Below, in pieces: positions 16,089 to 57,376 of a stretch of DNA of 64,000 nt; position 1 is the first letter of the stretch, and every line of letters starts with the position of its first letter. This stretch comes from Clostridia bacterium (GTDB lineage: Bacteria > Bacillota > Clostridia > UBA1381), in NCBI GenBank assembly GCA_017621875.1, contig JAGASE010000021.1, positions 1-64,000 of the forward strand, written 5' to 3'. The notes beneath the pieces were generated by a model. It ran no database searches. It was not told where the DNA came from and saw only the letters and a list, made by a program, of their open reading frames with translations. Both the position numbers and the translations under genes were made by a program.

Positions 16089-17864
16089 TCAGCAGGTTGT
16101 GTTCACAATTCGCTCGTCAATTCTTATTGTTGCATCATCCAAAAGCTGAGATTTGTGAAGATTGTGATGCATTTTTGCTCTGTCGTTTCTTGAAGACTTG
16201 TCCCTTGAGCCGGAAAAGATATATCCTTCGGTTCGCATATAAGCACACCATCTCATATGCTCGGTTATTGAGGCTGTTTCTCCCGACAAATGCTCTGCTT
16301 TCCTGTATTTGTCATGAATGGCAGTTGCCATTGAGGAATTTCTGCAGTACTCGGATTTTTCAAATTCCTTGATTGCTTTTTCTTTTTTTACTTCCCATTT
16401 TTCGGGCGTGTCATCGGGCGATTTTGCCCAGCTTAAATGGCAATTAAGTGCAAGCTCCTCCAGTTCTTCATTTATAATAGAGTTATATGAAAAACGGCTG
16501 CTTATATTTCCTATTATTTCTATATCATAGCTGTCGCCGGTATAATTAACAAGATTTCTGGTTTCTAAAATTTTGTATTTAATATCGCTGTAAACTATTG
16601 CTCTTATTACAGGATAAAGTCCGATACGCTCAAAAAGAATACGCAGGTTGATTGCTGTTTCAATATTAAGCTCATCGTTTCCGAGGGACACATAAACCAC
16701 CGAGGTGTTGGTAAGCGTGGAAACGATTTCGTGAAGCCTGTAGGTTTTGATATCAACTTCGTTGAAAAATTTGAGGTTATATCTTGCCTCTCCGAACTGC
16801 TCGTTTCCGTTAAGCGATATTATTTCGGGACATTCACTCTGAAAGCGTGCTTCGGCATTTTCCTTGTCAATAACATTTATTTCAAGATCATAGCCGGGTA
16901 GTTGTCCGCACCAAAGCAGAGCTTTTGCAATTTCCGTGCCGTAGCCGCCGAAGCCGACTATCAGGGTAGAAATGATTTTTTTGTCCTTGCGGACGGTTAC
17001 ATGCTCTGTTATCAGGCTGTTATAAATTATGGAATGAGCAAGCGAACGGTCCTCATTAATTCTGCGTACCTTCATAACGCCATGCTCAACCGAGTCAAGC
17101 AGCAGCTCGCCCTCTTTTGATGTGGAGAAGGTGTATACCTCGGTTTTCGGGCGGCTGTTGAATTTGTCTATTATATTAAGCGACGCCTCAAGATTGACCG
17201 ATTCATTCTCGCTTAAAGTAAAGAAGACTGTTCTTGTATCGGAGCCGCGGAGCTTAAGTCCTGCCTCAGTTATGTCCTTTTTAAAAAATATCGCTTTTAT
17301 TTCCTTTGCGTCTTCAATCAGGTCGTATGCGGCCTCATCCGATTCGGAAAAAACATTCATAAATGCAATGGCGGCAGTTGGGAATTTTTCTCGTATTGAC
17401 TTTGCCAGGGCAAGAGATTTTTCCGAAAGCTCGGACAGTACAAAGATGTCATTTTTGCGTGTTGTAAAGTATCTGAAATATGAGGTTATGCTTTCAAAAA
17501 AGGATAATACAAAGCTGAAGGTACAAATCGGAGCGGCAAACAAAAGAAAGGATAAATAGAAAAAGGTAATCCATGTATGCGTTCCGACAAGCCTAAAGGC
17601 TTCGCCGAGATTTCCGAAGTCATAGCCTGTTAGCATGACCTGTATTGTATGAAAAAGTGCAAGAAAAATTGCAGCGAGTTTACCATATGCAGCTCTATAA
17701 TCGGCAAAAAGCATTACGGAAAAGACTGACAAAAATGCACCTGCAACCAATATGTAGGATAATTTGATGCTTTTGTATTTTTTTTGAAGCTTTGATGTGG
17801 AAAATGCCAGATAAGCCGTAGCAATAAAAAAGCCTATCGATAAAATAAGACATAAATAACTCAT
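16089..17864 (-). CDS. Membrane protein with two RCK/TrkA-N-like domains and RyR-like tail
   Basis: A 591-residue protein with four N-terminal hydrophobic segments (about 2-21, 35-57, 63-85 and 94-130). A first Rossmann-like domain follows (RKNDIFVLSELSEKSLALAK), and then a second with the dinucleotide loop VGFGGYGTEIAKAL. The C terminus (EHMRWCAYMRTEGYIFSGSRD..MHHNL) matches the RyR-domain pattern of EHxRW, GxxxG-RD and H-P/N-L. The layout suggests a ligand-gated ion channel or a membrane sensor of a nucleotide-like signal. The start at 17864 (MSYLCLIL) has AAGGAG seven bases upstream; a 20-residue upstream extension has none. It is divergent from the CARF-nuclease gene. Ion selectivity and ligand are unknown. 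Confidence 0.75.
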   Translation of the reverse strand: MSYLCLILSIGFFIATAYLAFSTSKLQKKYKSIKLSYILVAGAFLSVFSVMLFADYRAAYGKLAAIFLALFHTIQVMLTGYDFGNLGEAFRLVGTHTWITFFYLSFLLFAAPICTFSFVLSFFESITSYFRYFTTRKNDIFVLSELSEKSLALAKSIREKFPTAAIAFMNVFSESDEAAYDLIEDAKEIKAIFFKKDITEAGLKLRGSDTRTVFFTLSENESVNLEASLNIIDKFNSRPKTEVYTFSTSKEGELLLDSVEHGVMKVRRINEDRSLAHSIIYNSLITEHVTVRKDKKIISTLIVGFGGYGTEIAKALLWCGQLPGYDLEINVIDKENAEARFQSECPEIISLNGNEQFGEARYNLKFFNEVDIKTYRLHEIVSTLTNTSVVYVSLGNDELNIETAINLRILFERIGLYPVIRAIVYSDIKYKILETRNLVNYTGDSYDIEIIGNISSRFSYNSIINEELEELALNCHLSWAKSPDDTPEKWEVKKEKAIKEFEKSEYCRNSSMATAIHDKYRKAEHLSGETASITEHMRWCAYMRTEGYIFSGSRDKSSRNDRAKMHHNLHKSQLLDDATIRIDERIVNTTC

Positions 17865-17933
17865 AGTACGCTCCTTGTTTTTGTAACTTTGTAATTTTTC
17901 TGCCATGCCGGGCAGAGGTGTCAATGTGATAAA

Positions 17934-18032: not shown

Positions 18033-19259
18033 GTGCTTGAAATTAAAACTCTAATTGAATTATTTGACAGCTGTCAGATTGAAAATGTCATTGCGGGACT
18101 GAGGTTTAAGCCCGAAAAGATTATATTTGTCGGCTTTAAAGAGGTAATGACCAGAAAGAGGACGGAGGACCTCAAGCGTTTTTTTGAATTACGCGGCGTG
18201 AATATTGCCACAGAATATGAGGTTGTGGGCAGATATGATTTTGATTTTATTGTAAATAAGCTTAATGAGATACTTGATAACAACGAGGACTGCTGCTTTG
18301 ACCTGACCGGCGGCAAAGAGCTTGTGCTGGCGGCTATGGGCATGGTGTCTGCACTAAGGGATATTCCCATGCTGCAGTTTAACGTGAGGTCGGGGAACCT
18401 TATCAGAGTTAAAAACTGCGATGATATTGAGGATACGCAGAAATCTTCAATGCTGATAAGCGAGAGCGTTGTGTTAAACGGCGGAGTGATTGTTTACAAT
18501 GATAACGAGGATTTTAAATGGGAGCTGACCGCGGATTTTAAGCGTGATATTGATACAATATGGAGAATGTGCAAAAGAAATTGCGGACTTTGGAACAGGC
18601 AGTCAAATGTCTTTGAAAGCTTTGAGCGGTTCGGAAGAATTGACGACACTCTTACTGTAAGCGTAAGCTTAAAGCATATGCGTGACGGCAAGCACGATAC
18701 AATGCTTAATTCGAGAATTATTAATGAGCTGATTAAAAACGAGCTGATTATGGATTTTGTCTGCGAGGAGGACTATCTGACCTTCAGATATAAAAACGTA
18801 CAGGTTCGCCAATGCCTCATAAAGGCAGGGAATATTTTAGAGCTTTATGCTTACATGACCGCAAGGGAGATTGCAAAGGAAGAGCCTGATTATTACGATG
18901 ATATTGATATCGGAGTCTTCGTGGACTGGGACGGAATAATTCATGACGGCACTACACAGGAAAGGGACACCAGAAACGAAATTGACATTATTCTTATGCG
19001 TGATTTAATTCCGATTTTTATATCCTGTAAGAACGGTGAGGTACATAAGGAGGCTTTGTATGAGCTGTCTGCAGTTGCGGAGAGATTCGGCGGAGAGTAT
19101 GCCAAAAAAATTCTTTTAACAACGTATGTAAGTCAGGACGCAGAAAGCCGCAAATATCTTCTTCAGCGGGCAAGGGATATGCAGATTGACGTTATTGAGG
19201 GCGTTGACAGAATGGACAAGGACGAATTTTTTGCAACACTCAGAAAGAGAGCTAAATAA
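18033..19259 (+). CDS. Card1/Can2-like protein: CARF domain plus PD-(D/E)XK nuclease (DUF1887)
   Basis: A 408-residue protein. The N-terminal half is CARF-like, with the motif DLTGGKE at residues 90-96, where this family binds cyclic oligoadenylate. The C-terminal half carries nuclease motifs: NILELYAY (E270), NEIDIIL (D318) and FISCKNG (K333). Relatives (Card1, Can2, DUF1887) are type III CRISPR ancillary nucleases activated by cyclic oligonucleotides. No CRISPR array, Cas10 or cas gene is visible within 64 kb. The activator may come from elsewhere, or the CARF domain may sense another nucleotide. In the E-x-K motif the acid position is Ser331. GTG start with an almost leaderless mRNA. The AAA+ gene follows after 31 bp. 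Confidence 0.82.
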   Translation: MLEIKTLIELFDSCQIENVIAGLRFKPEKIIFVGFKEVMTRKRTEDLKRFFELRGVNIATEYEVVGRYDFDFIVNKLNEILDNNEDCCFDLTGGKELVLAAMGMVSALRDIPMLQFNVRSGNLIRVKNCDDIEDTQKSSMLISESVVLNGGVIVYNDNEDFKWELTADFKRDIDTIWRMCKRNCGLWNRQSNVFESFERFGRIDDTLTVSVSLKHMRDGKHDTMLNSRIINELIKNELIMDFVCEEDYLTFRYKNVQVRQCLIKAGNILELYAYMTAREIAKEEPDYYDDIDIGVFVDWDGIIHDGTTQERDTRNEIDIILMRDLIPIFISCKNGEVHKEALYELSAVAERFGGEYAKKILLTTYVSQDAESRKYLLQRARDMQIDVIEGVDRMDKDEFFATLRKRAK

Positions 19260-22077: not shown

Positions 22078-22098
22078 AAATTGATTTTATGCTGACTT

Positions 22099-22127
22099 CC
22101 TCCGATAGAAATATCGGGGGATTTTTT
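22099..22127 (+). terminator. Terminator after ClpP
   Basis: CCTCCGATA, loop GAAA and TATCGGGGG form a 9-bp stem followed by a T6 run. It closes the CARF-AAA-ClpP transcript. Confidence 0.88.
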
Positions 22128-22219: not shown

Positions 22220-22248
22220 TTGACACATGTGGAATTATGTAGTAAAAT
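22220..22248 (+). promoter_or_regulatory. Promoter of the vWA-tubulin operon
   Basis: Perfect TTGACA (22220-22225), 17-bp spacer and TAAAAT (22243-22248). ACATGTG-like sequences around 22193-22232 occur twice and could be operator half-sites. Confidence 0.82.
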
Positions 22249-22305: not shown

Positions 22306-24447
22306 ATGAAAAAAAGTATAAAGCATATGGCAATATGCATGCTTTTGATTGTGCTGAGTGTGTTTCAGCTTGACTGTGGAACGGTTTTGGAGGCGGCAAC
22401 AGTAACCAAAAACAGCAAAACCTATGAGATTGCGGTTGTGTTTGACAATTCCGGCTCGATGTATAAGAATCAGGCATGGTGCAGAGCCAAGTATGCAATG
22501 GAAATTTTTGCGTCAATGATGAACTACGAAAACGGAGATGTATTAAAAATATTTCCTATGTGGCCCGTAACGACCGACGGTACTAAGCCTGCTTCGGGCG
22601 GAAGCTATGAAGGAATTGAAATAAGAAGCAGCAGTGATATTAATAAAATAAGCAATTTATATACGGTAGTGGCGTCCAATACGCCGTTTGCTCCTGTTAC
22701 CGAGGCGTATAACGCACTTTTAGGCTCAGGTGCGAGCGAAAAATGGCTTATAGTTTTAACCGATGGTGAATTTAACGAGGAGGCTCGCGGACAAAAGGCG
22801 ACAATAAAGCTGCAGAGCAGGCTTTCGGAGCTGGCGTCGGAAAATATCAAGGTGCAGTATCTGGGAATGGGAGCGGCTACGGCGTTAAAATCCGATGAAT
22901 CTCGGTGCTTTTATGCAAAAAAATCCTCCGAAACAAGCCTTAAAGAGGATTTGGTGAGCATATGCAATACTATTTTTCAGCGTTCTGCCCTGCCGAATAA
23001 TTATTTGTCAGGCTCTGCGTTGACGCTTGATATGTCCATGAAAAATCTCATTGTATTTGTCCAGGGAGCGGACGCCAAAATCGGCTCGCTGCTTGCTGCG
23101 GACAATACCCCTGTAAAGGAAATCTTAAACAGCGGGCAGAGAAGGTACAGTGAAATTAAGGCGGGCGGATATGAGAACGCACCTGTTGATACAACCTTGG
23201 CAGGTCAGGTTGTTACCTTCGGACCGTGTCCCAAGGGCAGCTACACGCTGGAATATTCAAACGCTGCGTCGATTCAGGTCTTCTATGAGCCTGATGTTGA
23301 TATAAGCCTGTCGCTGACAAACAGTGACGGACAGCCGGTTGATTATAAAACAGGGCAGATAAGTGCCGGAAATTATACCGCAAATTACGGAATTATTGAC
23401 GCTGTTACAGGCGAGGACGTGACAAAATCGCCGCTTATGGGCAGCGATGTTGTTATGTCAGGAAAGCTCGTGGCATCAGACGGCACCGAAACGGAAATAA
23501 CAAGCGGCGGAACGGTCGCTATTAACCCCGATGATGCAACCAAGATTATAATTAAGGGTACATATCTTAAGGATTATACAATATCTACCGAAGACGATCC
23601 GGCTTCATTTCCGGCAATAAAGGTGGATTTTCCGGAGCTTAAAGGGCTGGGACTTAAGGCATCTACCGAACAGCCAAGCTCGTGGTTTCAGACAGGTAAG
23701 GAAAGCGGCTGGAAGCCCATCAGGGTTTCGGCAACGCTTGCAGGTGAGCCTCTTACAGATGAGCAGCTGTCGGCACTTATACCGAGTCTGACATTCTCAA
23801 AGGATATTACCTATTCATATAAAATCCTGCCGGGAGAGTCGGCGTTTGAAATTAATATAGGATATGATGAAAACGGCAGCTATACCAAGCCGGAGAGCGG
23901 AAAATATAAGCTAACAGCATCGGCAGCACTGACAGATGAATACGGACGTGATATGCAGGACGAGACCTCCATGGAATTTGAGGTACACGGCTACAGTGCA
24001 ATATGGCGGTGGCTGAAATGGCTGATAATTATTTTAATACTTCTATTAATTACGGCGTTTATCCTTACAAGAAAGGCATGGCCTAAGGAAATGTATTTTG
24101 TATGCGGAAAACGCAGAGGAAAAATCAATATCAGCAAAAATATGAATATTGTATCAAACGCCTATCCAAACGTACTGTCGTGTGCGGCGGAGAAATCCTC
24201 CAAGCTGTATCAGAAGTTCGGCAAAAGTGCGGGAGTTAGAATCACAAAGGTTACGCCGATGTTCAATGTGGTGTCCTTCAAAATCGGAAGCAGTCCCACA
24301 TACACTAAGGACGGCAAGGATTACGTGGACTCAAGCGGAAAGACGTTTAAGGGAGTAAACCTTAAGAACAACACGAGAATAATCGTGGAGTTTAAGGGAA
24401 ATAAGCCGCCTATAGACGGCAAAATAAGCATGAATGGTAAGAAATAA
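22306..24447 (+). CDS. Membrane-anchored extracellular vWA-domain protein
   Basis: A 713-residue protein with an N-terminal signal peptide and then a von Willebrand A domain (about 40-230). Its intact metal-binding motif is DNSGS (D47, S49, S51), and LTDGEF is also present. The middle is beta-rich and of unknown fold. One TM helix lies near residues 568-590 (WLKWLIIILILLLI), followed by a ~120-residue basic, positively ended cytoplasmic tail. Most of the protein therefore faces outside while the tail can contact cytosolic partners, plausibly the tubulin-like protein encoded 20 bp downstream. vWA domains bind proteins through Mg2+; the partner is unknown. AAAGGGGAAGG precedes the ATG. Confidence 0.82.
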   Translation: MKKSIKHMAICMLLIVLSVFQLDCGTVLEAATVTKNSKTYEIAVVFDNSGSMYKNQAWCRAKYAMEIFASMMNYENGDVLKIFPMWPVTTDGTKPASGGSYEGIEIRSSSDINKISNLYTVVASNTPFAPVTEAYNALLGSGASEKWLIVLTDGEFNEEARGQKATIKLQSRLSELASENIKVQYLGMGAATALKSDESRCFYAKKSSETSLKEDLVSICNTIFQRSALPNNYLSGSALTLDMSMKNLIVFVQGADAKIGSLLAADNTPVKEILNSGQRRYSEIKAGGYENAPVDTTLAGQVVTFGPCPKGSYTLEYSNAASIQVFYEPDVDISLSLTNSDGQPVDYKTGQISAGNYTANYGIIDAVTGEDVTKSPLMGSDVVMSGKLVASDGTETEITSGGTVAINPDDATKIIIKGTYLKDYTISTEDDPASFPAIKVDFPELKGLGLKASTEQPSSWFQTGKESGWKPIRVSATLAGEPLTDEQLSALIPSLTFSKDITYSYKILPGESAFEINIGYDENGSYTKPESGKYKLTASAALTDEYGRDMQDETSMEFEVHGYSAIWRWLKWLIIILILLLITAFILTRKAWPKEMYFVCGKRRGKINISKNMNIVSNAYPNVLSCAAEKSSKLYQKFGKSAGVRITKVTPMFNVVSFKIGSSPTYTKDGKDYVDSSGKTFKGVNLKNNTRIIVEFKGNKPPIDGKISMNGKK

Positions 24448-24467
24448 AAAGAAAAGGGGTAAAAACA

Positions 24468-27400
24468 ATGTACGAGAAGGAAAAAATTCAGCCAAATAAG
24501 GTAAATGCACCGGTACTTTTCATCGGAGTGGGCGGTATTGGCTCAAAAATAATTAAGGGCGTTGCGGACAGATGTATAGGCGATGATACAAGCAATATCC
24601 GCTTTGTTGTGATGGATACCGACGTAAATGATTTGATTAATGTCGATAAAGGAGCAAATATTACTGCGGTGCAGACCTCGTCGACAAGCACAGTCGAGGA
24701 CTATCTCAAAAACGACCATGACGCGAAAAACGGCTGGTTCCCGGAGAATAAGATGCTTGACCCGAAGGCAGTTTCTGAGGGTGCAGGTCAGGTGCGTGCA
24801 ATTTCAAGGCTTGCATTAAACGCTACAATTAAGCAGGGAAATATACATCATTTATATAAGGCGATTGACGATTTGTTCTTAAAGGACGGCGGCGGACTCA
24901 AGCAGGCTATCCGCGTGGTTATCGCTTCAACAGCTGCCGGCGGAACAGGCTCCGGTATCGCAATGGAAACAGGTATGCTTGTGCGGCATTATGTTAAAAA
25001 GAACTATCCTGAGGCTGCGGTAATGATTCGCGGATTTCTTATCATGCCGGGAGTTATGGATACAGTAATCAAAACTCAGAGCGAAAAGGACAGCCTGCGT
25101 TGTAACGGCTATGCAACAATTAAGGAAATTAATGCGTTTATGATGAAAGGCAGCGGATTTTTTGATACTGTCCCTGAGCTTCATCGTTACAAGGACTTGC
25201 ATATAATGATTCCAAGCACCTCAAACGGCGACGAAAAGCTTAGCAATCTGCCGTTCGATTTCTGCTTCCTGCTCGACAGAACCGACTCAAATGCAGGCAA
25301 TATGACAACGCTGGGACAATATATAAACTATGCCGCACAGTCGATTTATGAGCAGAACATCGGTCCTATGAGAAGCAAGGCGGCAAGTATGGAGGATAAC
25401 GTTTTAAAGCTTTGCATAAGCCCGGAAAAGCTCGGCAGATGCCGCTTCGGCGGAACAGGTGCGTCGGTGCTTAAATATCCGTATGAGGACGTAAGAGATT
25501 ATATTGCACTTAACTGGACTCGTGCCTCAATCATAGGCTCTTCCGCGGACGATAAGCTTACCGAGGAGGAAAGAAAGGCACTGCTTAAAAGCTCCTGGCT
25601 GCAGTTTGACGCGAAGTTTATTGAGGAAAGAAAGAAGTGGGACGACAACCCGAACAGAAGTGCCAAGAATGAGCCTACGCTTGCCGGCGTTTACACTGCC
25701 TCGATGGAGGGCGGAAAGGACAGCTCTGCAGGAAATGAGTTCACCTCAATGCTTTGGGATAAATACATAACTCCGAAGATTGACGCTTTATCAGGCGGTG
25801 CAAGGACTACCGAAAGACTTGCCAAAAGCTATATAAAGCTGATTGTTGATGAAGCAATCAAGCACAGACTTTCACTGGATTTCCCTGAAATGCTTGACGA
25901 TATTATGACAGGACAAAAGCCGGTTTCGGAAAGAGGCGGCTTTGAGGCGAAATATCAGAGCATTTATCGACTTGAGAGCATGAGCCGTGATGAAAGCATG
26001 CCTGAAATTACCAAGAACTTTGCAAGAGAGGTTTTCGGAAGCAAGGCACCTATTGAAAAAGAGGATTTGGGCGAGTATATGCTCGAAAAATATCTGTCGA
26101 TAAACGGCAAGGCAATCCACCCGAACGCTGCAAGACACCTGCTGTATGAGCTGAAAAAGGCACTTGAAAGTGAATGGATAGACGCACAGAAAGGCTCTGA
26201 TGAGGCGGCGTTTAGTGAAGAGGTAAGAACAATCTGCTACGGTCAGGACAGCGGCAACGGAAAACGCGACACCTCTGAATTTGACGTAAAGGGTAGCCTT
26301 ATCAACAAGGAAAAGGACCTTCTTACTATGTGTCAGTCCTGCGATGAAAAGGGCAACTCAAACGACATGGAGGAATGCGAGGGTAAGCTTTCGGTTTACT
26401 TTGAGCGTGTTGAAAAGTTCTACACCTGTATTATCAAGAATGAAATCTGTGCCGTTGCAATTCCTGCGGTAAGCAGACTTATAAAGGCATATGAGGCGTT
26501 CTATGCAACCTTTGAGAGCAAGGTGCCGAGCATTGAACGCAAAAAAGAGGATATCGTAACCAAGCTGCAGTTTAAAAACGGTGACTGCGTGAAATACGTT
26601 CTTGGTGAGAAAAAATATCTCGATAAGCTCACAGCAAGCGTCGGACGTCCTGCCGATACGGGAGACGAGGCTTCCAAGCTGTACGCGAAAATATTTGAGT
26701 CGGTAAGAGACAATGCTTATATTGAGGAGCGTAAGAGCGTTAATCCGTTTGCATATGAGGCAAAGAAGGATATTTTTGACGATATAATCATTGAATATTA
26801 TAAGGACAGAGTTGAGGAATGCTGCGACATAATCAATGTAAAGGGCATTCTGCAGGCAATTAAGCTGGAATATGACGTGAAAAGCTCAATCGAGCTTGAT
26901 GAGGTAAGCGAGGAGCTGAAGGACACAAGGGCTGCGGAAATTCACAGTCCGAGCAGACTTAATAAGTATATTACATCTATGATAAATAAGTGTAATAACC
27001 TTGCAAGCCCGGGAATTAAGAAGAAGGACAATGATGAGCCGAGAGAGGTAAGTGCTATTGCTTGCAACGACGGTATTGCAGACGGCGAGGGCATAAGAGT
27101 GAACGATTTTGTGCCGGAGGCTGTTCGTACCGATACAGTTTCAAAATACGAGCTGCATTTCTTCCGTTCGGTTTACAACATTATGCCGACGCAGCTTGCG
27201 AAGCTCAGTGCACCTTCTTATGATGACGAAACAGATGAGTTTTCACTCAGCGGCGAAAACGCATATGATCAGCTTTCAGCCGGCGATTATTTCCGTATTT
27301 ATCAGAAGTACATGGATAGAATCGGACCTGACTGCAAAACAAGTGCTATTATCACTCCGCACGTTGATATGCGTTGGAATGCAATAGTAACAATGCCTGA

Positions 27401-28133
27401 GCTTGACCTTGATTATCAGAAGAGACTGATGAGAAAAATTCATAAGTCAATGATTTACGGCTTTATCTATGACAGAATCCATCTGTTTGCAACCTTGGAT
27501 GAAGGCTCTGACGAAAAGAACTACAAATACTTAAATTCGGAAAATGACCCGTGTGATTTGATTGTATCAAACAAAACAAAATGCGACGTGCTTTATGAGG
27601 TTTTAGACTCTTTGTATAACGACCGTCTTGCGGTATCGGTTATCCGTGAATACGTAAATAAGCTACGCGATAAGAGCAGGTCTGCAGGATTCCAGTCATA
27701 TGAGGACATTGAATTCTTTAAAATGTTAAAGAGCTTCAGATATAAGAAATTCATCAATGAGCCGGCTCTTAAGGGACTTGACGAGCAGGTTTCACTGTTT
27801 ACCGTTGTGCTTATGTACTGTAACTCACTTCCTGCACAGAACAAGGATATGGCGGAAATGAAGACAATGGTAGAGTCAATTATAGAAATGATTTACTCTG
27901 AGATGAACCTCTGTACGTCAAACAAGGACAGCATTTGTGCAAAGGTTGCGGATATTCTTATTGAACAGTTTAACTGCCTGATTGACAACTATAATGCACA
28001 TTCAAACGTATTAAAGTGCGGTAACTTCTCGGATCAGGTTATCGGTGCAATCCGCAGAACGCTCTGCAGCTTTATGGATAAGAGAGATTTGGAAAGCTAT
28101 AAGGATAGGCTGACAGTTTTTGAAGAGGATTAA
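24468..28133 (+). CDS. Tubulin/FtsZ-like GTPase-domain protein (Tubulin_2 type)
   Basis: A very large cytosolic protein of 1221 residues. The N-terminal ~400 residues carry tubulin-superfamily features. These are a glycine-rich first loop FIGVGGIGSK (18-27) and the tubulin signature loop STAAGGTGSG (154-163; compare GGGTGSG of FtsZ). A later PFDFCFLLDRTDSN segment is typical of the prokaryotic Tubulin-like family. The remaining ~800 residues are helical and unassigned, much larger than FtsZ or TubZ. Such proteins are suspected to form membrane-linked filaments or scaffolds; GTP binding is inferred. It is flanked by membrane proteins on both sides. The RBS AAAAGGGG lies before the ATG. Confidence 0.85.
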   Translation: MYEKEKIQPNKVNAPVLFIGVGGIGSKIIKGVADRCIGDDTSNIRFVVMDTDVNDLINVDKGANITAVQTSSTSTVEDYLKNDHDAKNGWFPENKMLDPKAVSEGAGQVRAISRLALNATIKQGNIHHLYKAIDDLFLKDGGGLKQAIRVVIASTAAGGTGSGIAMETGMLVRHYVKKNYPEAAVMIRGFLIMPGVMDTVIKTQSEKDSLRCNGYATIKEINAFMMKGSGFFDTVPELHRYKDLHIMIPSTSNGDEKLSNLPFDFCFLLDRTDSNAGNMTTLGQYINYAAQSIYEQNIGPMRSKAASMEDNVLKLCISPEKLGRCRFGGTGASVLKYPYEDVRDYIALNWTRASIIGSSADDKLTEEERKALLKSSWLQFDAKFIEERKKWDDNPNRSAKNEPTLAGVYTASMEGGKDSSAGNEFTSMLWDKYITPKIDALSGGARTTERLAKSYIKLIVDEAIKHRLSLDFPEMLDDIMTGQKPVSERGGFEAKYQSIYRLESMSRDESMPEITKNFAREVFGSKAPIEKEDLGEYMLEKYLSINGKAIHPNAARHLLYELKKALESEWIDAQKGSDEAAFSEEVRTICYGQDSGNGKRDTSEFDVKGSLINKEKDLLTMCQSCDEKGNSNDMEECEGKLSVYFERVEKFYTCIIKNEICAVAIPAVSRLIKAYEAFYATFESKVPSIERKKEDIVTKLQFKNGDCVKYVLGEKKYLDKLTASVGRPADTGDEASKLYAKIFESVRDNAYIEERKSVNPFAYEAKKDIFDDIIIEYYKDRVEECCDIINVKGILQAIKLEYDVKSSIELDEVSEELKDTRAAEIHSPSRLNKYITSMINKCNNLASPGIKKKDNDEPREVSAIACNDGIADGEGIRVNDFVPEAVRTDTVSKYELHFFRSVYNIMPTQLAKLSAPSYDDETDEFSLSGENAYDQLSAGDYFRIYQKYMDRIGPDCKTSAIITPHVDMRWNAIVTMPELDLDYQKRLMRKIHKSMIYGFIYDRIHLFATLDEGSDEKNYKYLNSENDPCDLIVSNKTKCDVLYEVLDSLYNDRLAVSVIREYVNKLRDKSRSAGFQSYEDIEFFKMLKSFRYKKFINEPALKGLDEQVSLFTVVLMYCNSLPAQNKDMAEMKTMVESIIEMIYSEMNLCTSNKDSICAKVADILIEQFNCLIDNYNAHSNVLKCGNFSDQVIGAIRRTLCSFMDKRDLESYKDRLTVFEED

Positions 28134-28159
28134 TTTGTTTGAATTTTAAATTTTACAGC

Positions 28160-28178
28160 CCTCCGCTTTTGGCGGAGG
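28160..28178 (+). promoter_or_regulatory. Hairpin over a candidate ribosome site
   Basis: CCTCCGC, loop TTTTG and GCGGAGG form a 7-bp GC-rich stem just after the tubulin-like gene. The 3' arm contains GGAGG, so folding would hide a Shine-Dalgarno sequence for the next gene. Ribosomes finishing the upstream gene could open it (translational coupling). No T-run follows, so it is not a terminator. Confidence 0.5.
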
Positions 28179-28198
28179 ACTGCAAGGCGGTGAGAAAG

Positions 28199-30241
28199 AT
28201 GTTTACAGTTTTAATTTGTGACAAGCATATTATAAATGATTGTCATAATAAATATTACATATATTTTAAGCCCTTTCTTGACGATAAGAATTTTGCATTT
28301 TGCTCATGGAATACACAGGCTTCAAGCTTAGACGAGGCTGTTCCCGAATTAAAGAGTATTATAAGAGGTAAAAAGGAATGGCGTGCGATTGTTGTAAACG
28401 ACAGCTCAACATGGGATTTTAATTCAGTCAATAAAAGAAATCCTTTCAATTTTGTTGACAGCCAAAACGCCGTACCGGAGTTTTCTGATTTTTCTGTGGT
28501 GGAAAGCTTTAGGGCAGATGAGCAAAGAATGCTGTCAAAAGCTCTGTCAAATCCTCTTGTTAAGCTGTCGGTATGGCTGTGCGGCTCGCCTATCAAGGTA
28601 AAGCCGGAGGTATGCTATTCAGGCTATGAGGAGGCTATAAATAATCCGAAGGATTCAGCTGCATATTTTGCAAAGCTTAAAGAATTGGGACTTTCGGCAA
28701 AGGATGCCGAGGCTGACAGAAGCCGTGCGATAAAATTTGAACGCCTTTCGGAAATGTTTGATTTCGGCGGAGAGCTGTTCAATCCTCCACAGTCGTTTTT
28801 GGCGGTTAGCGAAAGAGCAAAGGATATTGAGCGTGAGCTTGCAGATGATGCATGGAAAACCCATACCGAGTTTGATTACTCGCATTTTTATACCGAAAAC
28901 CTGTACCCTGATAAGCTGAGATATCTGATATGTGATGTGTCGTATGTAAAAGGCGAGAGAAATGAAGGCTTGTATTTTAATTTCCTTACTCTTATGCTGC
29001 TTTTGGCATTAAATGAATGTCCGAGCGGCGTGCTTCGCCCAAATCGTGTATATACTTTGGGTGTGGAGATTGACTCGGACTGTGTGAGGGAGCTGTGCTA
29101 TAGGTATAATGCAAAGCTTACGGCAACTCTCGGCAAAATCAGCAGTATGTCAAGAAAGCTGTCCGAAAAGGAAAAGGAGCCGATAGACAGGGATACTGCA
29201 CGTATGTGCTTTGAAACCGATGTGGAAATTCCTGTTGAGGTTGATGGCGAGTTTGATAAAAAAAGACTGATGGCAGAATATGATAAAATCGGTCTTTCAA
29301 AGGATTGTCCAGAGGAGGAGTATAAGTATTGGAATGAGCAGTATCATTCAATCAGCAAGCTGTTTATACGCTACCTGCGTGAGCCGAGGCGTGCAGTTAA
29401 AACCGCCGCAAAGGTGGGACTTCGCAGCTCAAATAAGATATCGGATGAGCGTGCCCTGCAGCTGAATGAGTTTCAGCGTGAGGATATTGAGGACCATCTT
29501 TTGGAGGAAGAGCTCAACATGGTTTCAACAGTGACAACACAGCTTTACAATACCGAGGAATACAGAGCGGAAATAGATAAGGCTGATAAGCTGCTGCGGC
29601 GTGAAATCGGGCAGCGTATGACAAAGCGTAAAACGGTGTTTGCAGGACTTATTGCACTCGTTGCGTATTTTCTGGGATTTCTGCCTCTGTTTATAAGCAA
29701 CTTAAATACAACTAAGTCCTTCCTATTCTCGATGGGAGTTACGGGAGTCACGCTTTTAGTGTTCATGGTAATCGGATTTGTTTTTCTGTTTATTTTGAGA
29801 AAGAGGCTTGTGAAACGGTTTAAGGACTTTAATGACGCAATGAATGAAATTCTTGCGGAAATTGAAGCGGGGCTTGGAAAATTTTCAAAATATTTAAGTC
29901 ATGCATGTAATGTGATGCGTGGATTTTCGGTGCTTTCTTATACCGAAAATTCCTTTGAAAAAAGGCAGAATATTCTAAATCATCATAAAAATGTTATTCT
30001 AAATAAAATAAAAGAGGTAAACGAGTTGTTTTCTGATTACCTTACATCGGAAAACAGCGAGGCGGAGTGTAATATTCAGCCGTATGATTTTGATTTTGCA
30101 AAGTTAGTCGAATACAACTATGAAATGCCGTACAGCGGTGCAGCAAAGAGCATTGAGTTTATGCAGACGGGAAATCAGATACAAATACCGATTGATTACG
30201 TTAAATCGGTCAGCGTAAAAAGGGAGGAGTTATATGATTGA
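28199..30241 (+). CDS. Protein of unknown function with two TM helices
   Basis: A 680-residue protein I do not recognise. About 475 N-terminal residues are soluble, followed by two close TM helices (about 480-502 and 509-536). A short helical C-terminal region then ends in VKREELYD. The two helices with a short turn predict both large parts on the cytoplasmic side. The frame extends upstream to a TTG at 28139, but that region holds a hairpin. ATG 28199 (MFTVLICDK) or GTG 28190 are better starts. Its end overlaps the next gene by 8 bp, indicating tight coupling. Context suggests a membrane tether for the tubulin-like protein; this is inference. Confidence 0.7.
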   Translation: MFTVLICDKHIINDCHNKYYIYFKPFLDDKNFAFCSWNTQASSLDEAVPELKSIIRGKKEWRAIVVNDSSTWDFNSVNKRNPFNFVDSQNAVPEFSDFSVVESFRADEQRMLSKALSNPLVKLSVWLCGSPIKVKPEVCYSGYEEAINNPKDSAAYFAKLKELGLSAKDAEADRSRAIKFERLSEMFDFGGELFNPPQSFLAVSERAKDIERELADDAWKTHTEFDYSHFYTENLYPDKLRYLICDVSYVKGERNEGLYFNFLTLMLLLALNECPSGVLRPNRVYTLGVEIDSDCVRELCYRYNAKLTATLGKISSMSRKLSEKEKEPIDRDTARMCFETDVEIPVEVDGEFDKKRLMAEYDKIGLSKDCPEEEYKYWNEQYHSISKLFIRYLREPRRAVKTAAKVGLRSSNKISDERALQLNEFQREDIEDHLLEEELNMVSTVTTQLYNTEEYRAEIDKADKLLRREIGQRMTKRKTVFAGLIALVAYFLGFLPLFISNLNTTKSFLFSMGVTGVTLLVFMVIGFVFLFILRKRLVKRFKDFNDAMNEILAEIEAGLGKFSKYLSHACNVMRGFSVLSYTENSFEKRQNILNHHKNVILNKIKEVNELFSDYLTSENSEAECNIQPYDFDFAKLVEYNYEMPYSGAAKSIEFMQTGNQIQIPIDYVKSVSVKREELYD

Positions 30242-33200
30242 TAAAATATTGTTTATTGCAAAAATGGTCATGGCTGTTCTTCCTTTTGTTGTGCTTTGCT
30301 TTGCAAGCAGCGGGATAAACTTTGAAAAGCCGGAGCGGAGCAGGCAGTATCCAATGCCTGTGCTTTCACTGATATACCTCATAGTGCTGATGTTTGCGGT
30401 GGATTCGATAAATAATTGGATTTTGCATTTTATAAGAAATCTTCCTGTGTGGATTACAGAGCTTGGCAGTTCTTTTCCGGCAGAGCTTAGCGAAATGTTT
30501 GCGATGGCGGGTGAAAAGGTTAATGCTTTTATTGAAGGGCTTAATCTCAATTTCTGGATATTCTTTATATCCAACACCGTTATAATGCTGCTTTATTTGA
30601 CGGTAAAAAAGCTGTGTCTTGCAATAATAGACCGAGTTGTTCAGGAAGGCTCGGACATACATACCTTTGTTGCGGAGAATTTTTATGAATACTTTGCGGA
30701 AAAGGGAAAATGGTGTCTTCTGGAAAGCTATGTTCAGGCGAGAAGTCTTTTTAAGGTTTTCTATTACAGTGCAGTAATTTTGTCGGCTATGCTGATGCTT
30801 TTAAGCCGCCACTTTTATAACCAAGGCTTACTTGAAACAATTTACTATCCGGTATTCGGAGTTTTAATTGTGGGAGAGCTGTATTTTTATTTAGACGGTG
30901 CTACAAAGCGTGAATATTCGGTGGATATTCTCGGCGAGGACGAGGACGCGTACAGGGTAGTTAATTATTCGCTCCTGCGTAAGTTTCTGCGGAATCTGTT
31001 CGGCGATAAGCTGCTGGCGGAAAATACAAGCGTGAACAACACAATTTTTAATGACACTACCAATGACGAGGTTATAAGCAAGCTTGAAAAAAGCGAGGAT
31101 TTAAAGGTCACAGCCTTTGGTACGTATATGAGAACGCTCAATGATACCGGCTTTGACCTGGACCATAACTATATTGCCTCAGCCCTTGACCTTTTGTGCG
31201 GAAAAAGTATATTGTTTAACAATCCGTTCTATAACGACCTTATTCCGTATGCGTTTTATCCCATGAACCGCATGCTGCTTGAGCATAAAAAGGTGCTTGT
31301 AATTTTGGGAAGGCACGCAATCGAGGACGATATTAAGACGTGGCTTGAGGACGGAATTAACGCTGTTACAAATATTCCGTTTTTATGGAATATCGGCATT
31401 TTGGATTCGCAGAAAAACGGGGATATGGATATAGGCATTTTAACCCGTTCGGACGTTTTGGATATAAAGCTGCATAATGCAAATGCGGAGTTTCTTGAAA
31501 AGGTGGGTTACGTGGTAATTATTGAGCCTTCAAAGCTCATTTCTACCGCACAAATCGGACTTAATCTTATTATAAAGAAATGCCGCGGCGAGGAGGACAG
31601 AAGTATCACATACTGTCTTTGCGATAAAAACTGTGACGGCTTGGTTGACGCGATGTCGCATATTCTTATGACGAGCCTTACCGAGGTTTCGGCAACAAAT
31701 AAGCATAAGGGTACTTCGTCATACATGTGCTGGGAGGCGGATAATGAATATCTGCATCACAGAATTGTGCCGAATATATCAAGATATCTCGGATTGGGAA
31801 CAGAGCTTTCCTTTGCGGCACTTAAAAATCAGGTATCAAAAACGCAGTGGTTCGGCGGCGAGGCTTTTCCTGTTACCGACGCACGCTGGATAGATAAGCA
31901 ATATTATTATGACCTTATGAAATATTCAGGTCTGCCGACAAACCAGGAGGCAATGGACGAGAGGTTTTTGACCTCCGCGAATTTCTGGAGTGCAAAAACG
32001 GATAAGCATAATTACTTTACGGTTGAGGACGAGGCATTTAACATGTTTGAAATTCTAAGGAATTTCTCAACACGCTCAAAGGAGCAGGGCTTTATAAATG
32101 TTATTTCATCGGAATATCTGCTGAAGGACTATATGGCGGATAATGCGTCGATATTTGAAAGTGACGCAAAGGCAATCCCGTATGTTGTGGCAGATTATGT
32201 ACGCTCTGTACGGAATACGGTTTTGCGTCTTGTTCTGATGATGAGTACCTTCCCGGTAAATGCCGAGGTTTTAAAAAGAGAGCTGTCCTTAATCGGAATA
32301 AAGGTTTACGATATTAAAAAGCAGCTTTGGTATGAAATTTTTCGCTGCTATGCGGATACCAAAACCTTAAAGGAACTTCCCGAGGAGTACAGAGCAGCGG
32401 TTGAGGCGGCATCACAGCTGTCGCTGACCGATTTTGATAATGGTGAATGTAAGACGGATATAAGTCTTCTTTTAGAGGCAGACGAGTTTAACGCAAAATA
32501 CGGAAGAATGGAGCATACCTTCGCGATTAAGGATAGCTCTTTCCTTGACAGGTTTGTATCCGAGCTTAAATCCGCAGGATATGTCGCAGAGGACGAAAAG
32601 GGCGATAAATATTACCTGGGTGCAGAGCTGTGCGGTCATATTTATCAGAAGTATCTTCCGGGGCAATTCTTCACCTTCGGCGGTAAATATTATGAGATGC
32701 GTTATCTTACCGCGGACGGTCACGTGCTGGTAAGGCGTGCCGCAGACCATATTACCGACCGTGCGTCCTATCGGCAGATGCGTGAGTATACCATATGCGG
32801 AACAAAGCCAGCCGAGAGAATCGGCTCGTGCCGCGATATATCGGGAATGAAGGTTATACATGAGTATGCCGATATCAGGGTGGACACTCCGGGATATTAC
32901 ATCATGCAGAAGTATAACGATTTCGGAACTTCAAAGGCGGTATTGTTTGAGGGCGAAAAAAGCGGAATACCAAAAAGAGTTTATCGCAATAAGGAAATTT
33001 TAAGAATTGAGCTTCCGGATGGTGACGGAAAGCTTACCGATAGCGTGAGATATACCGTTGCTACGCTGTTTAATGAAATATTCAGGACGATGTTTGCCGA
33101 AAATCATGCATATATAGCAGCTGTTACCGATGACAGCTTCATCGCGGACAGCTCGGAGACTAAGCCGCTTACATATTCAATAAAAGCGGAGAACTGTGAG

Positions 33201-34607
33201 CTTTGCAGCGGCAGCATATATATCATTGAGGACAGTCAGCTTGATTTGGGGCTTACATCAGCTGTGGAGCGAAATCTTGAAAGGATTTTGGGAATTATAA
33301 CCGATTATCTTGACTGGCATCTTTCGGCGGTGGAGAAAAGTCTGAATCCTCCGCCTGAGCCGCAGCCTCCTGTAAGCTTTACAGAGGCTCCGGCAGAGCC
33401 GAAAAAGGAGAAGAAAACCGGCTTTGTTGCAGATATTAGACAGCGTGCCGAGAAAATCAAGGAAAAAATCAAAGGTGTATTTAAGCCTAAGGATAAGACA
33501 AAGCCGGAGGGTGACGGCGTACAGCCGCCTGTGGCAGAAAAGCCTGAACAGGCTGCTGCAGAGCCGCAAAGCGATACGGCGGCGGTCGGTGAAGAAAGCA
33601 AAGCAGATGAGGTGATGACGCTTAAAAATGTGGCCGCACCTTCTGCAGAAGATAAATCTGCCGAAAAGAAAAAAATTGAGTTTAAGCGTAAGCCGTATCA
33701 TAGCACATATTACCTTTTGTACGGCGGCAGCTCTGAGCCGTCCTGCCTTGATACAGCAGGTACGCACAGCTATCTTGGCACAATAGGCTTAGCGAAAAAT
33801 CCGCTTAAGCAGGCTCGTGACGGCAAGGAAATCGCTAAGCTTGTCGAGGCGACCTTTAAGCCCGGAAAGTCCGACGTCCGCTATTGCGATTTCTGCGGCA
33901 CAGAGATATACGGCGTGGAATACGAAACCCTGTCTGACGGACGTGACCGCTGCATAAGCTGCGGAAGAACAGCGATTAAGACGGGTGCGGAATTTAGAAA
34001 GATTTTCGAGGACGTAAAGCGAAATATGGAATCCTTCTTCGGAATTAAGATAAACACGGGAATCCGTGTGGAGATGGTTAATTCCAAGAAGCTTAATAAA
34101 AAGCTGGGTTACGCCTTTGTACCTACGCCCGAAATGGACGGACGCGTGCTGGGAGTTGCGATAAAGGATAAGAATGGCTATACTCTGATGATAGAAAACG
34201 GCTCTCCGCGTATGGCGTCCATGCTGACGATGGCACATGAGCTGACTCATATCTGGCAGTATCTGAACTGGAGCGACAGAGCTATCTGCAGCAGATACGG
34301 CAGAGATATGCGGCTTGAAATTTATGAGGGTATGGCAAAGTGGGTTGAAATTCAGTATGCATATCTTATAAATGAGCCTGCGGTTGCAAAGCGTGAGGAG
34401 CTTATCACATTAAGTCGAAACGATGAATACGGCAGAGGATTTTTAAGATATCTTGCAGCTTATCCGTTCTCACAGGGAACTGTTATAACAAAGCCTACTC
34501 CGTTTATGAATTTGGAAGAGCCTTTGGACCCGGAGTTTTGCGGACCTATTTCGTATCAGCCGGTAGAGGCCGATACTTCGGAAGCTGACAGTGACAACGG
34601 AGTATAG
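30234..34607 (+). CDS. Giant membrane protein with C-terminal zinc ribbon and HELTH peptidase (DA1-like)
   Basis: A 1457-residue protein. About five TM helices occupy residues 1-230. A large region (about 230-1030) is of unknown fold, with no P-loop seen. A Pro/Ala/Glu/Lys-rich linker spans about 1040-1155. The C-terminal part has a treble-clef or LIM-like zinc site, C1218-x2-C1221 and C1240-x2-C1243. A metallopeptidase motif follows: H1335-ELT-H1339 with a likely third ligand E1365 (YEGMAKWVE). Zinc ribbon followed by HExxH and EGxA is the layout of DA1-type peptidases, which in plants cleave ubiquitin-pathway proteins. The substrate here is unknown. The ATG overlaps the previous gene by 8 bp, with GGGAGGAG upstream. 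Confidence 0.72.
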   Translation: MIDKILFIAKMVMAVLPFVVLCFASSGINFEKPERSRQYPMPVLSLIYLIVLMFAVDSINNWILHFIRNLPVWITELGSSFPAELSEMFAMAGEKVNAFIEGLNLNFWIFFISNTVIMLLYLTVKKLCLAIIDRVVQEGSDIHTFVAENFYEYFAEKGKWCLLESYVQARSLFKVFYYSAVILSAMLMLLSRHFYNQGLLETIYYPVFGVLIVGELYFYLDGATKREYSVDILGEDEDAYRVVNYSLLRKFLRNLFGDKLLAENTSVNNTIFNDTTNDEVISKLEKSEDLKVTAFGTYMRTLNDTGFDLDHNYIASALDLLCGKSILFNNPFYNDLIPYAFYPMNRMLLEHKKVLVILGRHAIEDDIKTWLEDGINAVTNIPFLWNIGILDSQKNGDMDIGILTRSDVLDIKLHNANAEFLEKVGYVVIIEPSKLISTAQIGLNLIIKKCRGEEDRSITYCLCDKNCDGLVDAMSHILMTSLTEVSATNKHKGTSSYMCWEADNEYLHHRIVPNISRYLGLGTELSFAALKNQVSKTQWFGGEAFPVTDARWIDKQYYYDLMKYSGLPTNQEAMDERFLTSANFWSAKTDKHNYFTVEDEAFNMFEILRNFSTRSKEQGFINVISSEYLLKDYMADNASIFESDAKAIPYVVADYVRSVRNTVLRLVLMMSTFPVNAEVLKRELSLIGIKVYDIKKQLWYEIFRCYADTKTLKELPEEYRAAVEAASQLSLTDFDNGECKTDISLLLEADEFNAKYGRMEHTFAIKDSSFLDRFVSELKSAGYVAEDEKGDKYYLGAELCGHIYQKYLPGQFFTFGGKYYEMRYLTADGHVLVRRAADHITDRASYRQMREYTICGTKPAERIGSCRDISGMKVIHEYADIRVDTPGYYIMQKYNDFGTSKAVLFEGEKSGIPKRVYRNKEILRIELPDGDGKLTDSVRYTVATLFNEIFRTMFAENHAYIAAVTDDSFIADSSETKPLTYSIKAENCELCSGSIYIIEDSQLDLGLTSAVERNLERILGIITDYLDWHLSAVEKSLNPPPEPQPPVSFTEAPAEPKKEKKTGFVADIRQRAEKIKEKIKGVFKPKDKTKPEGDGVQPPVAEKPEQAAAEPQSDTAAVGEESKADEVMTLKNVAAPSAEDKSAEKKKIEFKRKPYHSTYYLLYGGSSEPSCLDTAGTHSYLGTIGLAKNPLKQARDGKEIAKLVEATFKPGKSDVRYCDFCGTEIYGVEYETLSDGRDRCISCGRTAIKTGAEFRKIFEDVKRNMESFFGIKINTGIRVEMVNSKKLNKKLGYAFVPTPEMDGRVLGVAIKDKNGYTLMIENGSPRMASMLTMAHELTHIWQYLNWSDRAICSRYGRDMRLEIYEGMAKWVEIQYAYLINEPAVAKREELITLSRNDEYGRGFLRYLAAYPFSQGTVITKPTPFMNLEEPLDPEFCGPISYQPVEADTSEADSDNGV

Positions 34608-34642: not shown

Positions 34643-34685
34643 ATATAAATTTCATCGTCCCTATCCGGGACGATGAAATTTATAT
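34643..34685. promoter_or_regulatory. Perfect 19-bp inverted repeat upstream of the RyR gene
   Basis: Arms 34643-34661 and 34667-34685 are exact reverse complements around a 5-base loop (TATCC). The GC core is TCGTCCC/GGGACGA and the outer ends are AT-rich. It could end the upstream operon, although only AT-rich sequence and no T-run follows. It could also be an operator or an RNA control element for the RyR gene, whose ATG is 36 bases downstream. Confidence 0.8.
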
Positions 34686-34721
34686 ATGGGTAAATTAAAA
34701 AACACCAAAAGGAGAATGAAA

Positions 34722-35006
34722 ATGTATATACCGAATCCTGTTGATACAAAAGATGTGGTGCTTGATGAAGAAATTCTGGAGCTGTCCGAATATCTTGCAA
34801 AAAATACGCATGAGGTGTGGGCAAAGGGTCGCATTGACGACGGCTGGTCATACGGAGCGGTGCGAAACGATGAAAAAAAGCTGCATCCCTGTCTTATTGA
34901 ATACGAGCTTTTGTCCGAGGCGGAAAAGGAATATGACAGACGTACCGCAATGGAAACCTTAAAGCTAATTATAAAGCTCGGCTATAAAATCAGCCGCGAA
35001 GACTAA
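34722..35006 (+). CDS. Single-domain RyR protein
   Basis: A 94-residue protein that is essentially one RyR domain: PNPVDTKDVVL, a helix LSEYLAKNTHEVWAKGRI, DDGWSYGAVRNDEKKLHPCL, and ELLSEAEKEYDRRTAMETLK. These match the ryanodine-receptor repeat pattern of HExWA, GWxYG, RD/RN and HPxL. In prokaryotes such domains occur with TIR, SLOG and CARF components and are proposed to bind nucleotide-like ligands. The ATG at 34722 has AAAAGGAG eight bases upstream; the frame extends 12 codons further without support. The TIR gene follows from its own promoter. A second RyR-like domain is in the 16089-17864 protein. Confidence 0.88.
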   Translation: MYIPNPVDTKDVVLDEEILELSEYLAKNTHEVWAKGRIDDGWSYGAVRNDEKKLHPCLIEYELLSEAEKEYDRRTAMETLKLIIKLGYKISRED

Positions 35007-35024
35007 GCTTAATGCAATAATATG

Positions 35025-35053
35025 TTGAAAAATATCAAACCTTATGATATAAT
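35025..35053 (+). promoter_or_regulatory. Promoter of the TIR-kinase-TerY transcript
   Basis: TTGAAA (35025-35030), 17-bp spacer and perfect TATAAT (35048-35053), about 50 bases before the TIR start codon. Confidence 0.8.
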
Positions 35054-35103: not shown

Positions 35104-36117
35104 ATGGAGTTAATAAATCGGAATAATCCCAATCATCCGTATATTTTTGTGAGTTACTCCAGTGCAGACAGTATTCAGGTTTACTCGGATATTATGCGTT
35201 TGCAGGAGTACGGGGTTAATATATGGATAGATACCGAGCTGGATTTCCACGTAGGGGAGCGTTGGCAAAGCAGAGTGCATGCGGCAATGAAAAGTGCAAA
35301 CTGCAAGGCGGTACTGTTTTTTGTCAGCGAGGCGTCGCTCACGAGCAGCAACGTATATGACGAGCTGGCGTTTTCGGTATCGGACGCGGTTAAAAACACG
35401 CATTACGGTAACGGTCTCGCGTTTTTGCCGATTGAGGTTACTCCGATTAGTGATATTACATCGTATTGCTTTCAGCTCGCATCGGAATACAGTATTTTAG
35501 AGCAGAATGCATCGGAAGACAGCAGAAGCCTGTCCGACAATATAAGTCTGATAAGAAACAGCTTTTTCCCGAATAATGATATAAAGCGTTTCAGGATATT
35601 TGACCGCAAGGATATTTCGCCTTTAATAGAACTGATGAGGGACATGCAGGTTTTGTCGGGAGAAAAAACACAGACAAAGCTTCCTGGCGGTCAGGCGTTT
35701 TACGATGAGGCGATGGAGCTGCAGGAGAAAAATAATTACAAGGATTCGATAGAGAGTCTTGTGCTCTCTGCGATACAGGGATACTATAAGGCATATCTTT
35801 CGCTTGGTCAGATTTACGCCATGGGAAAGTATGGAGAGCAAAGAAATGTGCGAAGAGCCGAGGGCTGCTTTTTAAGAGCTTTTGACCTCGGCAGTCCGGC
35901 AGGACTTTATAATATTGCTCAAATAAAAAAGGGACAGAAAAACTATGCAAAGGCTGCAGAACTTCTTATAAAGGCGGCAAGTCTGCCTGACGCAACCGTA
36001 AAGCTTAGGACAAACTGCAAAAACGGGCTTATAAGTATAGGCGAGCTGCAGAGAGAAGAGGGACATATAACTGAAGCGAACACAGCAATCGCCGCAGCTG
36101 AAACCATTATAATTTAA
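35104..36117 (+). CDS. TIR-domain protein with Sel1/TPR-like repeats
   Basis: A 337-residue cytosolic protein. Residues about 11-150 form a TIR domain: YIFVSYSSAD (box 1), VNIWIDTELDFHVGERW, and a likely catalytic glutamate E87 in SSNVYDELAF. Bacterial TIR domains often cleave NAD+ or make cyclic ADP-ribose-like signals. Residues about 195-320 hold Sel1/TPR-like helical repeats (AYLSLGQIYAMGKYG, AGLYNIAQIKKGQKNYAKAAEL) for protein binding. It starts a new transcript with its own promoter and is followed 14 bp later by the kinase-like gene. NADase or cyclase activity is inferred. Confidence 0.88.
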   Translation: MELINRNNPNHPYIFVSYSSADSIQVYSDIMRLQEYGVNIWIDTELDFHVGERWQSRVHAAMKSANCKAVLFFVSEASLTSSNVYDELAFSVSDAVKNTHYGNGLAFLPIEVTPISDITSYCFQLASEYSILEQNASEDSRSLSDNISLIRNSFFPNNDIKRFRIFDRKDISPLIELMRDMQVLSGEKTQTKLPGGQAFYDEAMELQEKNNYKDSIESLVLSAIQGYYKAYLSLGQIYAMGKYGEQRNVRRAEGCFLRAFDLGSPAGLYNIAQIKKGQKNYAKAAELLIKAASLPDATVKLRTNCKNGLISIGELQREEGHITEANTAIAAAETIII

Positions 36118-36131
36118 AAGGGGTGTGTATT

Positions 36132-38138: not shown

Positions 38139-38158
38139 GCGAAGGGGAGTGAATAGTA

Positions 38159-47840: not shown

Positions 47841-47852
47841 AGGGGTGACAAA

Positions 47853-50471: not shown

Positions 50472-50528
50472 AAATAAAAGAAGGCGGAGGCCTTAAAAAT
50501 ATTTGTGTTTTACAAGGAGGAATTTAAA

Positions 50529-52583: not shown

Positions 52584-52609
52584 TATTTTGCAAAGTTGAG
52601 GAAAAGACA

Positions 52610-53821: not shown

Positions 53822-53895
53822 TTTGAAGCAGGCGGCGGACTTTGCAAAAGGGCATAGTCCCTCTGCCTGATTTGTAAAAAAAGGAGGTAGGAAGA
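53822..53895 (+). promoter_or_regulatory. Intergenic hairpin before the first GH gene
   Basis: Nested stems CAGGC..GCCTG and GGACT..AGTCC (about 53827-53870) lie between the genes. No T-run follows on the + strand, so a processing or stability element is more likely than a terminator. The TTG start follows AAGGAGG. Confidence 0.45.
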
Positions 53896-57339: not shown

Positions 57340-57376
57340 CAGAATTAAATCATTTGCGAAAGGGAGGAATTGGCGA

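Follow-up and report, generated by a model that had tools for sequence, protein, structure and literature searches.

The closest described relatives of the system presented here are the FtsZl1 operons defined by Makarova and Koonin in 2010 (PMC2875224). Members of the FtsZl1 family normally have about 1000-1250 residues, those described in 2010 about 1050, and a vWA protein as a partner, and a role in membrane remodelling was suggested for them; both the authors and a reviewer treated this idea as uncertain, and the reviewer proposed transport or signalling. The Pfam family of Tubulin_2 has been treated as a side branch (PMC9871819). In the literature searched no experimental work on FtsZl1 was found, apart from an expression study in which mechanical motion up-regulated a methanogen vWA operon whose tubulin-like gene is annotated as CetZ (PMC12008871), which is a lead towards an adhesion or shear response and not evidence for the locus described below. 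This locus lies in a stretch of 64,000 nucleotides from a Clostridia bacterium (contig JAGASE010000021.1, positions 1 to 64,000; hereafter the window), where an FtsZl1 gene stands between genes of a vWA protein and of a protein with two transmembrane segments (TM2), followed by a gene of a membrane-anchored protein with a superfamily 2 (SF2) helicase fold (MP). It can be said that these four genes form a fixed cassette.

The original prediction, made from the window alone, described an operon of three genes, and the three open reading frames (713, 1221 and 700 aa, the last read from 28139 to 30241) are present as noted. The operon as first described was incomplete, since a fourth open reading frame (1457 aa, MP) overlaps the third gene by 8 nt and is part of the same operon; it is also the unusual part of it. 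The core features are as follows.

22306-24447 (+): vWA1, with a signal peptide, an extracellular vWA domain with a metal ion-dependent adhesion site (MIDAS), one transmembrane segment (TM) and a cytoplasmic tail
24468-28133 (+): FtsZl1 (Tubulin_2) protein of 1221 aa, assigned by PF13809, AlphaFold2 (AF2) and Foldseek
24504-25535 (+): residues 13-356 of this protein, the tubulin-like GTPase part; loops T1, T3 and T4 are conserved
28199-30241 (+): TM2 from its likely true start, with a cytoplasmic N-terminal part (about 480 aa), a TM hairpin and a cytoplasmic C-terminal part
30234-34607 (+): MP, with N-terminal TMs, an SF2/DUF1998-helicase fold, a disordered linker, a Zn-ribbon and a HELTH metallopeptidase
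30951-33353 (+): putative pseudo-helicase region of MP, about residues 240-1040 (Foldseek; motif loss)
33816-34493 (+): MP Zn-ribbon and putative gluzincin-like metallopeptidase, about residues 1195-1420 (CxxC...CxxC; HELTHIWQ...YEGMAKW)

One scan of genome contigs yielded 101 relatives, and 80 loci were kept, belonging to Clostridia and other Bacillota going by their record labels. The order and strand of vWA, FtsZl1, TM2 and MP were preserved in 56/56 loci where all four genes were callable, which is far beyond chance, and TM2 and MP overlap in 98%. The vWA1 family was present in 80/82 sources tested. Loci that are similar in one of the four proteins tend to be similar in the others as well (pairwise identities over 46 loci, Mantel r 0.43-0.83, p 0.001), therefore the four travel together. 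A divergent copy (L116) keeps the vWA, tubulin, TM2 and pseudo-helicase parts without the peptidase, and G158 holds a set that is divergent yet complete. The cassette is rare, at about 1% of Clostridia sampled: MP occurs in 5/391 genomes of the class and 2/300 of the phylum, window included. Carriers include some gut Clostridia, and a cultured one, going by its record title, is Pseudoflavonifractor sp. An44. No relatives were found among the viral contigs searched and no plasmid carriage of the cassette was found. The sole match in a phage collection, MT836542.1 (‘Bacteriophage sp.’, 9.8 kb), has a PurC-like gene (by eye) ahead of the genes for vWA and the tubulin-like protein; because this contig is ‘UNVERIFIED’, unannotated and encodes a PurC-like protein, it is most likely a mislabelled bacterial contig, and a phage origin was rejected.

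As in the FtsZl1/vWA operons (PMC2875224), the tubulin-like protein has an N-terminal FtsZ-like domain with a long coiled-coil or helical rest and is separate from division FtsZ, and the vWA gene lies in the same operon together with membrane-protein partners. Unlike them, the conserved cassette is devoid of a P-loop GTPase, OmpA and a classical Ser/Thr kinase, and has TM2 and the membrane pseudo-helicase/metallopeptidase instead. The main text of PMC2875224 contains no mention of a helicase, peptidase or ion channel, but TM2 or MP could be among the associated families that it leaves unnamed. The combination that had seemed unfamiliar was described in part in 2010: tubulin-plus-sensor operons were already known, whereas neither the set of four nor its frequent association with ion-channel-like proteins seems to have been described. 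In two genomes of the same bacterial family (G048 and G051) the Tubulin_2 operon is of another kind and includes a P-loop protein. Near a further Tubulin_2 operon of different type (L010:1-5848), a 1528-aa protein and three small proteins resemble EssC/WXG100 by eye, so that a link between another FtsZl1 type and type VII secretion (T7SS) is possible there.

The tubulin-like protein belongs to the FtsZl1 family of 2010. Tubulin_2 (PF13809) covers residues 17-353 (E 9.1e-51, 173.6 bits vs a curated cut-off of 27), and the AF2 model, with 65 relatives in the alignment, reached a predicted local distance difference test score (pLDDT) of 86.8 and a predicted TM-score (pTM) of 0.77; its best Foldseek matches are TubZ, CetZ, tubulins and FtsZ (prob 1.00). 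The N-terminal tubulin fold, named beforehand as the point on which the original prediction could fail, was thus found. The GTP-binding loop AAGGTGSG, noted earlier, occupies residues 156-163 and agrees with the FtsZl1 signature GGGTG(S/T)G; GGTGSG is kept in 68/74 relatives, the T1, T3 and T4 elements hardly vary and the GTP site looks intact. Residues E309, D310 and N311, in the helix after predicted H7, are invariant, and the first two are candidate T7/H8 acids. The closest solved tubulin-fold structures are those of TubZ and CetZ (4ei7, 4b45, 3zid), but the identity is only 10-16%, and these proteins, plasmid- or phage-borne in the case of TubZ and archaeal in the case of CetZ, are without the giant helical region. 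No solved relative was found by sequence, and PDB sequence searches with TM2, MP and tubulin profiles gave nothing useful.

The size of the protein was thought to be unusual, which was not borne out. About 1200 residues is normal for FtsZl1 relatives (65 full-length ones have 1150-1300 aa, a range that is the analyst's own selection filter); because FtsZl1 members are normally long and located beside vWA genes, neither the ‘giant’ size nor the pairing of vWA and tubulin is new. In the AF2 model helices extend across residues 366-845, including 631-680, and the C-terminus is helical, which fits the extended helical/coiled-coil middle of FtsZl1. The order of secondary structures is S6-H7-H8-S7-H9-(insert)-strands-helix-strands, with S7 at 327-336, H9 at 339-356, then about 500 helical residues, strands at 859-867 and 895-905, a helix at 981-1000 and strands at 1004-1030. 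Mean pairwise identity is 62% in the N-domain, 27-35% in the insert and 49% in residues 861-1040. This predicted order and the conservation profile suggest, as a hypothesis, that the tubulin C-terminal domain is split by a helical insertion of about 500 residues; if true, this would explain the failure to find T6-H7 in 2010.

A separate ftsZ is present in 8/8 other genomes tested that bear Tubulin_2 or MP, therefore the cassette tubulin is not the division FtsZ. In the window's own genome no ftsZ match was obtained, though 40/40 relatives have the gene; one of the ftsZ-flanking genes of a relative is missing there and the other gave only ambiguous matches of 41-45%. Loss of ftsZ was rejected, an assembly gap in this 92.6% complete genome being most likely.

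Hydropathy predicts four TMs near the N-terminus of the window MP; its relatives mostly have 4-7. The AF2 model of residues 220-1400 (pLDDT 79) has its best PDB match in the DUF1998 helicase MrfA (6znp, E 4.7e-23, prob 1.00, TMt 0.52-0.60 in Foldseek); four MrfA chains head the ranking (E 4.7e-23 to 8.7e-14 vs 7e-8 for the next helicase families), followed by the Hel308, Brr2 and DNA polymerase theta helicases. The predicted fold is thus shared over about 800 residues with MrfA and DUF1998 SF2 helicases (6znp, 6znq, 6zns). Unlike MrfA, MP has TMs at its N-terminus and a putative metallopeptidase at its C-terminus, and is without Walker A and DExH; a Walker A or DExH/DEAD motif was found in the helicase lobe of 0/79 MP copies. 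Other conserved motifs sit at the lost positions, and the protein has conserved motifs of its own (NNPFYYDLIPY, IEPSKL, DKNCDGLVDALSH). On the model, MP would be a pseudo-helicase scaffold in which the motor residues have been lost.

The C-terminus of MP comprises a CxxC...CxxC ribbon and HELTHIWQ...YEGMAKW, an HExxH motif with a downstream Glu of gluzincin type. This Zn-ribbon/HELTH part is present on most MP copies (HExxH is listed for about 60); no Pfam peptidase family scored above cut-off in MP, and the putative peptidase is assigned by motif. It is encoded as a separate gene in several species and is absent in G158, and in MP versions of about 1900 aa a transglutaminase-like domain is added. 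A small lipoprotein-like gene (about 155 aa) recurs near MP in L043, L055, L057 and L063, and by eye in L117.

Three of the four core proteins are membrane proteins judging from hydropathy, which also bore out the signal peptide and cytoplasmic tail noted earlier for vWA and the cytoplasmic parts of its two-TM partner. The vWA protein has a MIDAS motif (DNSGS) and an extracellular middle part rich in beta structure, crosses the membrane once (TM at 570-588) and ends in a cytoplasmic tail of about 125 residues; the Pfam VWA match of the window copy is below cut-off (13.8 bits). The concept of a receptor variable outside and constant inside was rejected, since the opposite conservation pattern was observed. 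TM2 has TMs at 501-519 and 534-552 of the 700-aa protein. Because 37/64 aligned TM2 sequences start at window residue 21, the true start is probably ATG 28199 and not TTG 28139. A short hairpin (CCTCCGC-TTTT-GGCGGAGG, 28157-28178) lies between the tubulin gene and this likely start and is a possible translational or transcript-processing element. In sequence and profile searches window TM2 matched no Pfam family above cut-off and no PDB entry convincingly. Kinship with partner proteins of other Tubulin_2 operons was also considered and found unconvincing, the 632- and 882-aa proteins of the G048/G051 operon giving no convincing match.

The borders of the operon, which rest on consensus matches and predicted RNA folds and not on measured transcripts, and two accessory genes are listed below.

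22098-22121 (+): terminator-like hairpin after clpP, upstream operon border (10-bp stem then TTTTTTG; RNA fold z -3.75)
22220-22248 (+): sigma-70-like promoter match TTGACA-17-TAAAAT, 11/12, 57 nt upstream of the vWA start (consensus match only)
34643-34685 (+): strong hairpin after MP, likely downstream operon border (19-bp stem, -27.3 kcal/mol, z -6.36)
34686-35006 (+): stand-alone RyR-domain protein (accessory), directly downstream of MP (PF02026, E 5e-35)
16089-17924 (-): TrkA-RyR membrane protein (accessory), 4.4 kb upstream of the cassette; the family recurs beside the cassette

In the window the cassette is surrounded by CARF-nuclease, TIR, RyR, ClpP, AAA and TerY-like genes, on one strand and closely packed, and it could be taken as a piece of a larger system of 11-12 genes from CARF to a TerY vWA (18033-39016). 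This is very improbable and was rejected: the stretch is split by the hairpins at 22098-22121 and 34643-34685 and by promoter matches at 22220 and 35025, and among the 80 related loci CARF is beside one and ClpP beside one, with AAA, kinase and TerY genes beside none. These neighbours are thus not conserved. The CARF protein (18033-19259, +) is a CARF-PDDEXK nuclease, Card1/Can2-like; type III CRISPR as its explanation was rejected, since no RAMP gene was found in the window's genome. At 35104-39016 (+) a TIR-Sel1 protein, a zinc-ribbon protein with a kinase-like middle and a vWA protein resembling TerY (the last two by eye) are consecutive; they may make up a TerY-P-like unit, for which a separate promoter match lies at 35025. 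Further downstream, an ABC sugar-uptake set is followed by surface proteins with S-layer-homology and Ig-like (Big_2, Big_5) domains (46119-60580).

The same surroundings, together with the rare and patchy distribution and the pseudo-helicase fold of DUF1998 type, would suit an anti-phage or stress-response system in which vWA or RyR senses and the peptidase, TIR or channel is the effector. DUF1998 helicases occur in defence systems. Nevertheless, this explanation is rather unlikely, as the CARF, AAA, ClpP, kinase and TerY genes are not retained beside the cassette, the one CARF (in L024) lies near a type III CRISPR RAMP gene, and none of the four core proteins was matched by PADLOC. TIR genes turn up again at a few loci, but the sampled neighbours are mostly housekeeping genes, and a defence island was rejected on this ground.

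Two families of membrane proteins recur instead. A distinct TM/RCK-channel-like family of about 700 aa, absent from the window itself, is beside 14/80 cassettes, mostly within 600 bp, vs a match anywhere in 4/245 class genomes (Fisher p 1.5e-6), and TrkA-RyR is beside 20/80 vs 21/245 genomes in a lenient count (p 3e-4) or about 6/245 in a strict one (p 6e-9); the p-values are approximate, because loci are set against genomes and relatedness is left out of account. The RCK-like neighbour resembles CASTOR/POLLUX-type RCK channels in having TMs, then two RCK-like halves, with a filter-like stretch by eye. It differs from them as a separate family with Pfam matches below cut-off (Slo-like_RCK 16.2 bits vs 24; Castor_Poll_mid 13.4 vs 26.7).

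On these grounds the cassette is read, with less than even confidence, as a GTPase scaffold at the membrane that is connected to a vWA sensor outside the cell, with a probable link to ion flux or envelope signalling. The original prediction, which had a membrane-tied scaffold and an external sensor, is by inference still the best reading, and the tubulin fold and the topology of its membrane partners held up. The cassette would encode an inner-membrane machine of four components, of the vWA/FtsZl1 type. The extracellular vWA domain with its metal-dependent MIDAS site would bind a ligand (wall polymer, another cell or host surface), and inside the cell the GTP-binding tubulin relative would assemble in a GTP-dependent manner on a membrane platform made of TM2 and the multi-pass MP. 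The helicase fold of MP, without motor residues, may serve as a binding scaffold and the peptidase as an optional output or reset module. The assembly may control, or be controlled by, ion flux or a nucleotide ligand, because of the frequent RCK-channel-like and TrkA-RyR neighbours. We infer GTPase activity, polymerisation, contact between the parts, ligand and output. The most elaborate version, an integrin-like device in which a MIDAS vWA receptor, a split tubulin polymer and a dead-helicase membrane scaffold gate an RCK-type ion channel, is improbable.

Several points weigh against a sensor-coupled scaffold. If the sensor acts on a filament, conservation would be expected in the vWA tail, through which it should make contact with the cytoplasm, yet this tail is the least conserved part of the protein (19% mean pairwise identity vs 39% for the vWA domain). 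Polymerisation is unreadable from sequence and could be blocked by the helical insertion, TM2 is without a recognisable fold, and the Mantel correlation also follows from plain co-inheritance. No channel-like neighbour is in view at about 60% of loci (some contigs end early), the background of the neighbour tests is a genome sample from the window's class and not a matched control, and contigs of metagenome-assembled genomes from related species are not fully independent.

The proposal of Makarova and Koonin, a remodelling or vesicle machine whose GTPase filament bends or pinches the cytoplasmic membrane, shares with the cassette the same family and the same vWA partner (PMC2875224), and three membrane partners would agree with it. 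Apart from the doubts expressed on its publication, the recurrent neighbours indicate channels or signalling and not membrane shaping, and no dynamin-, ESCRT- or lipid-related family was seen recurring in the neighbour clusters; it is therefore regarded as unlikely.

FtsZl1 proteins have been without an established function since 2010. The compact conserved set of partners defined here makes this function directly testable with four genes. The same holds for three more specific proposals: that an SF2 helicase fold without motor motifs acts as a scaffold at the membrane, that the tubulin domain may be split, and that the system is linked to RCK/RyR membrane proteins.

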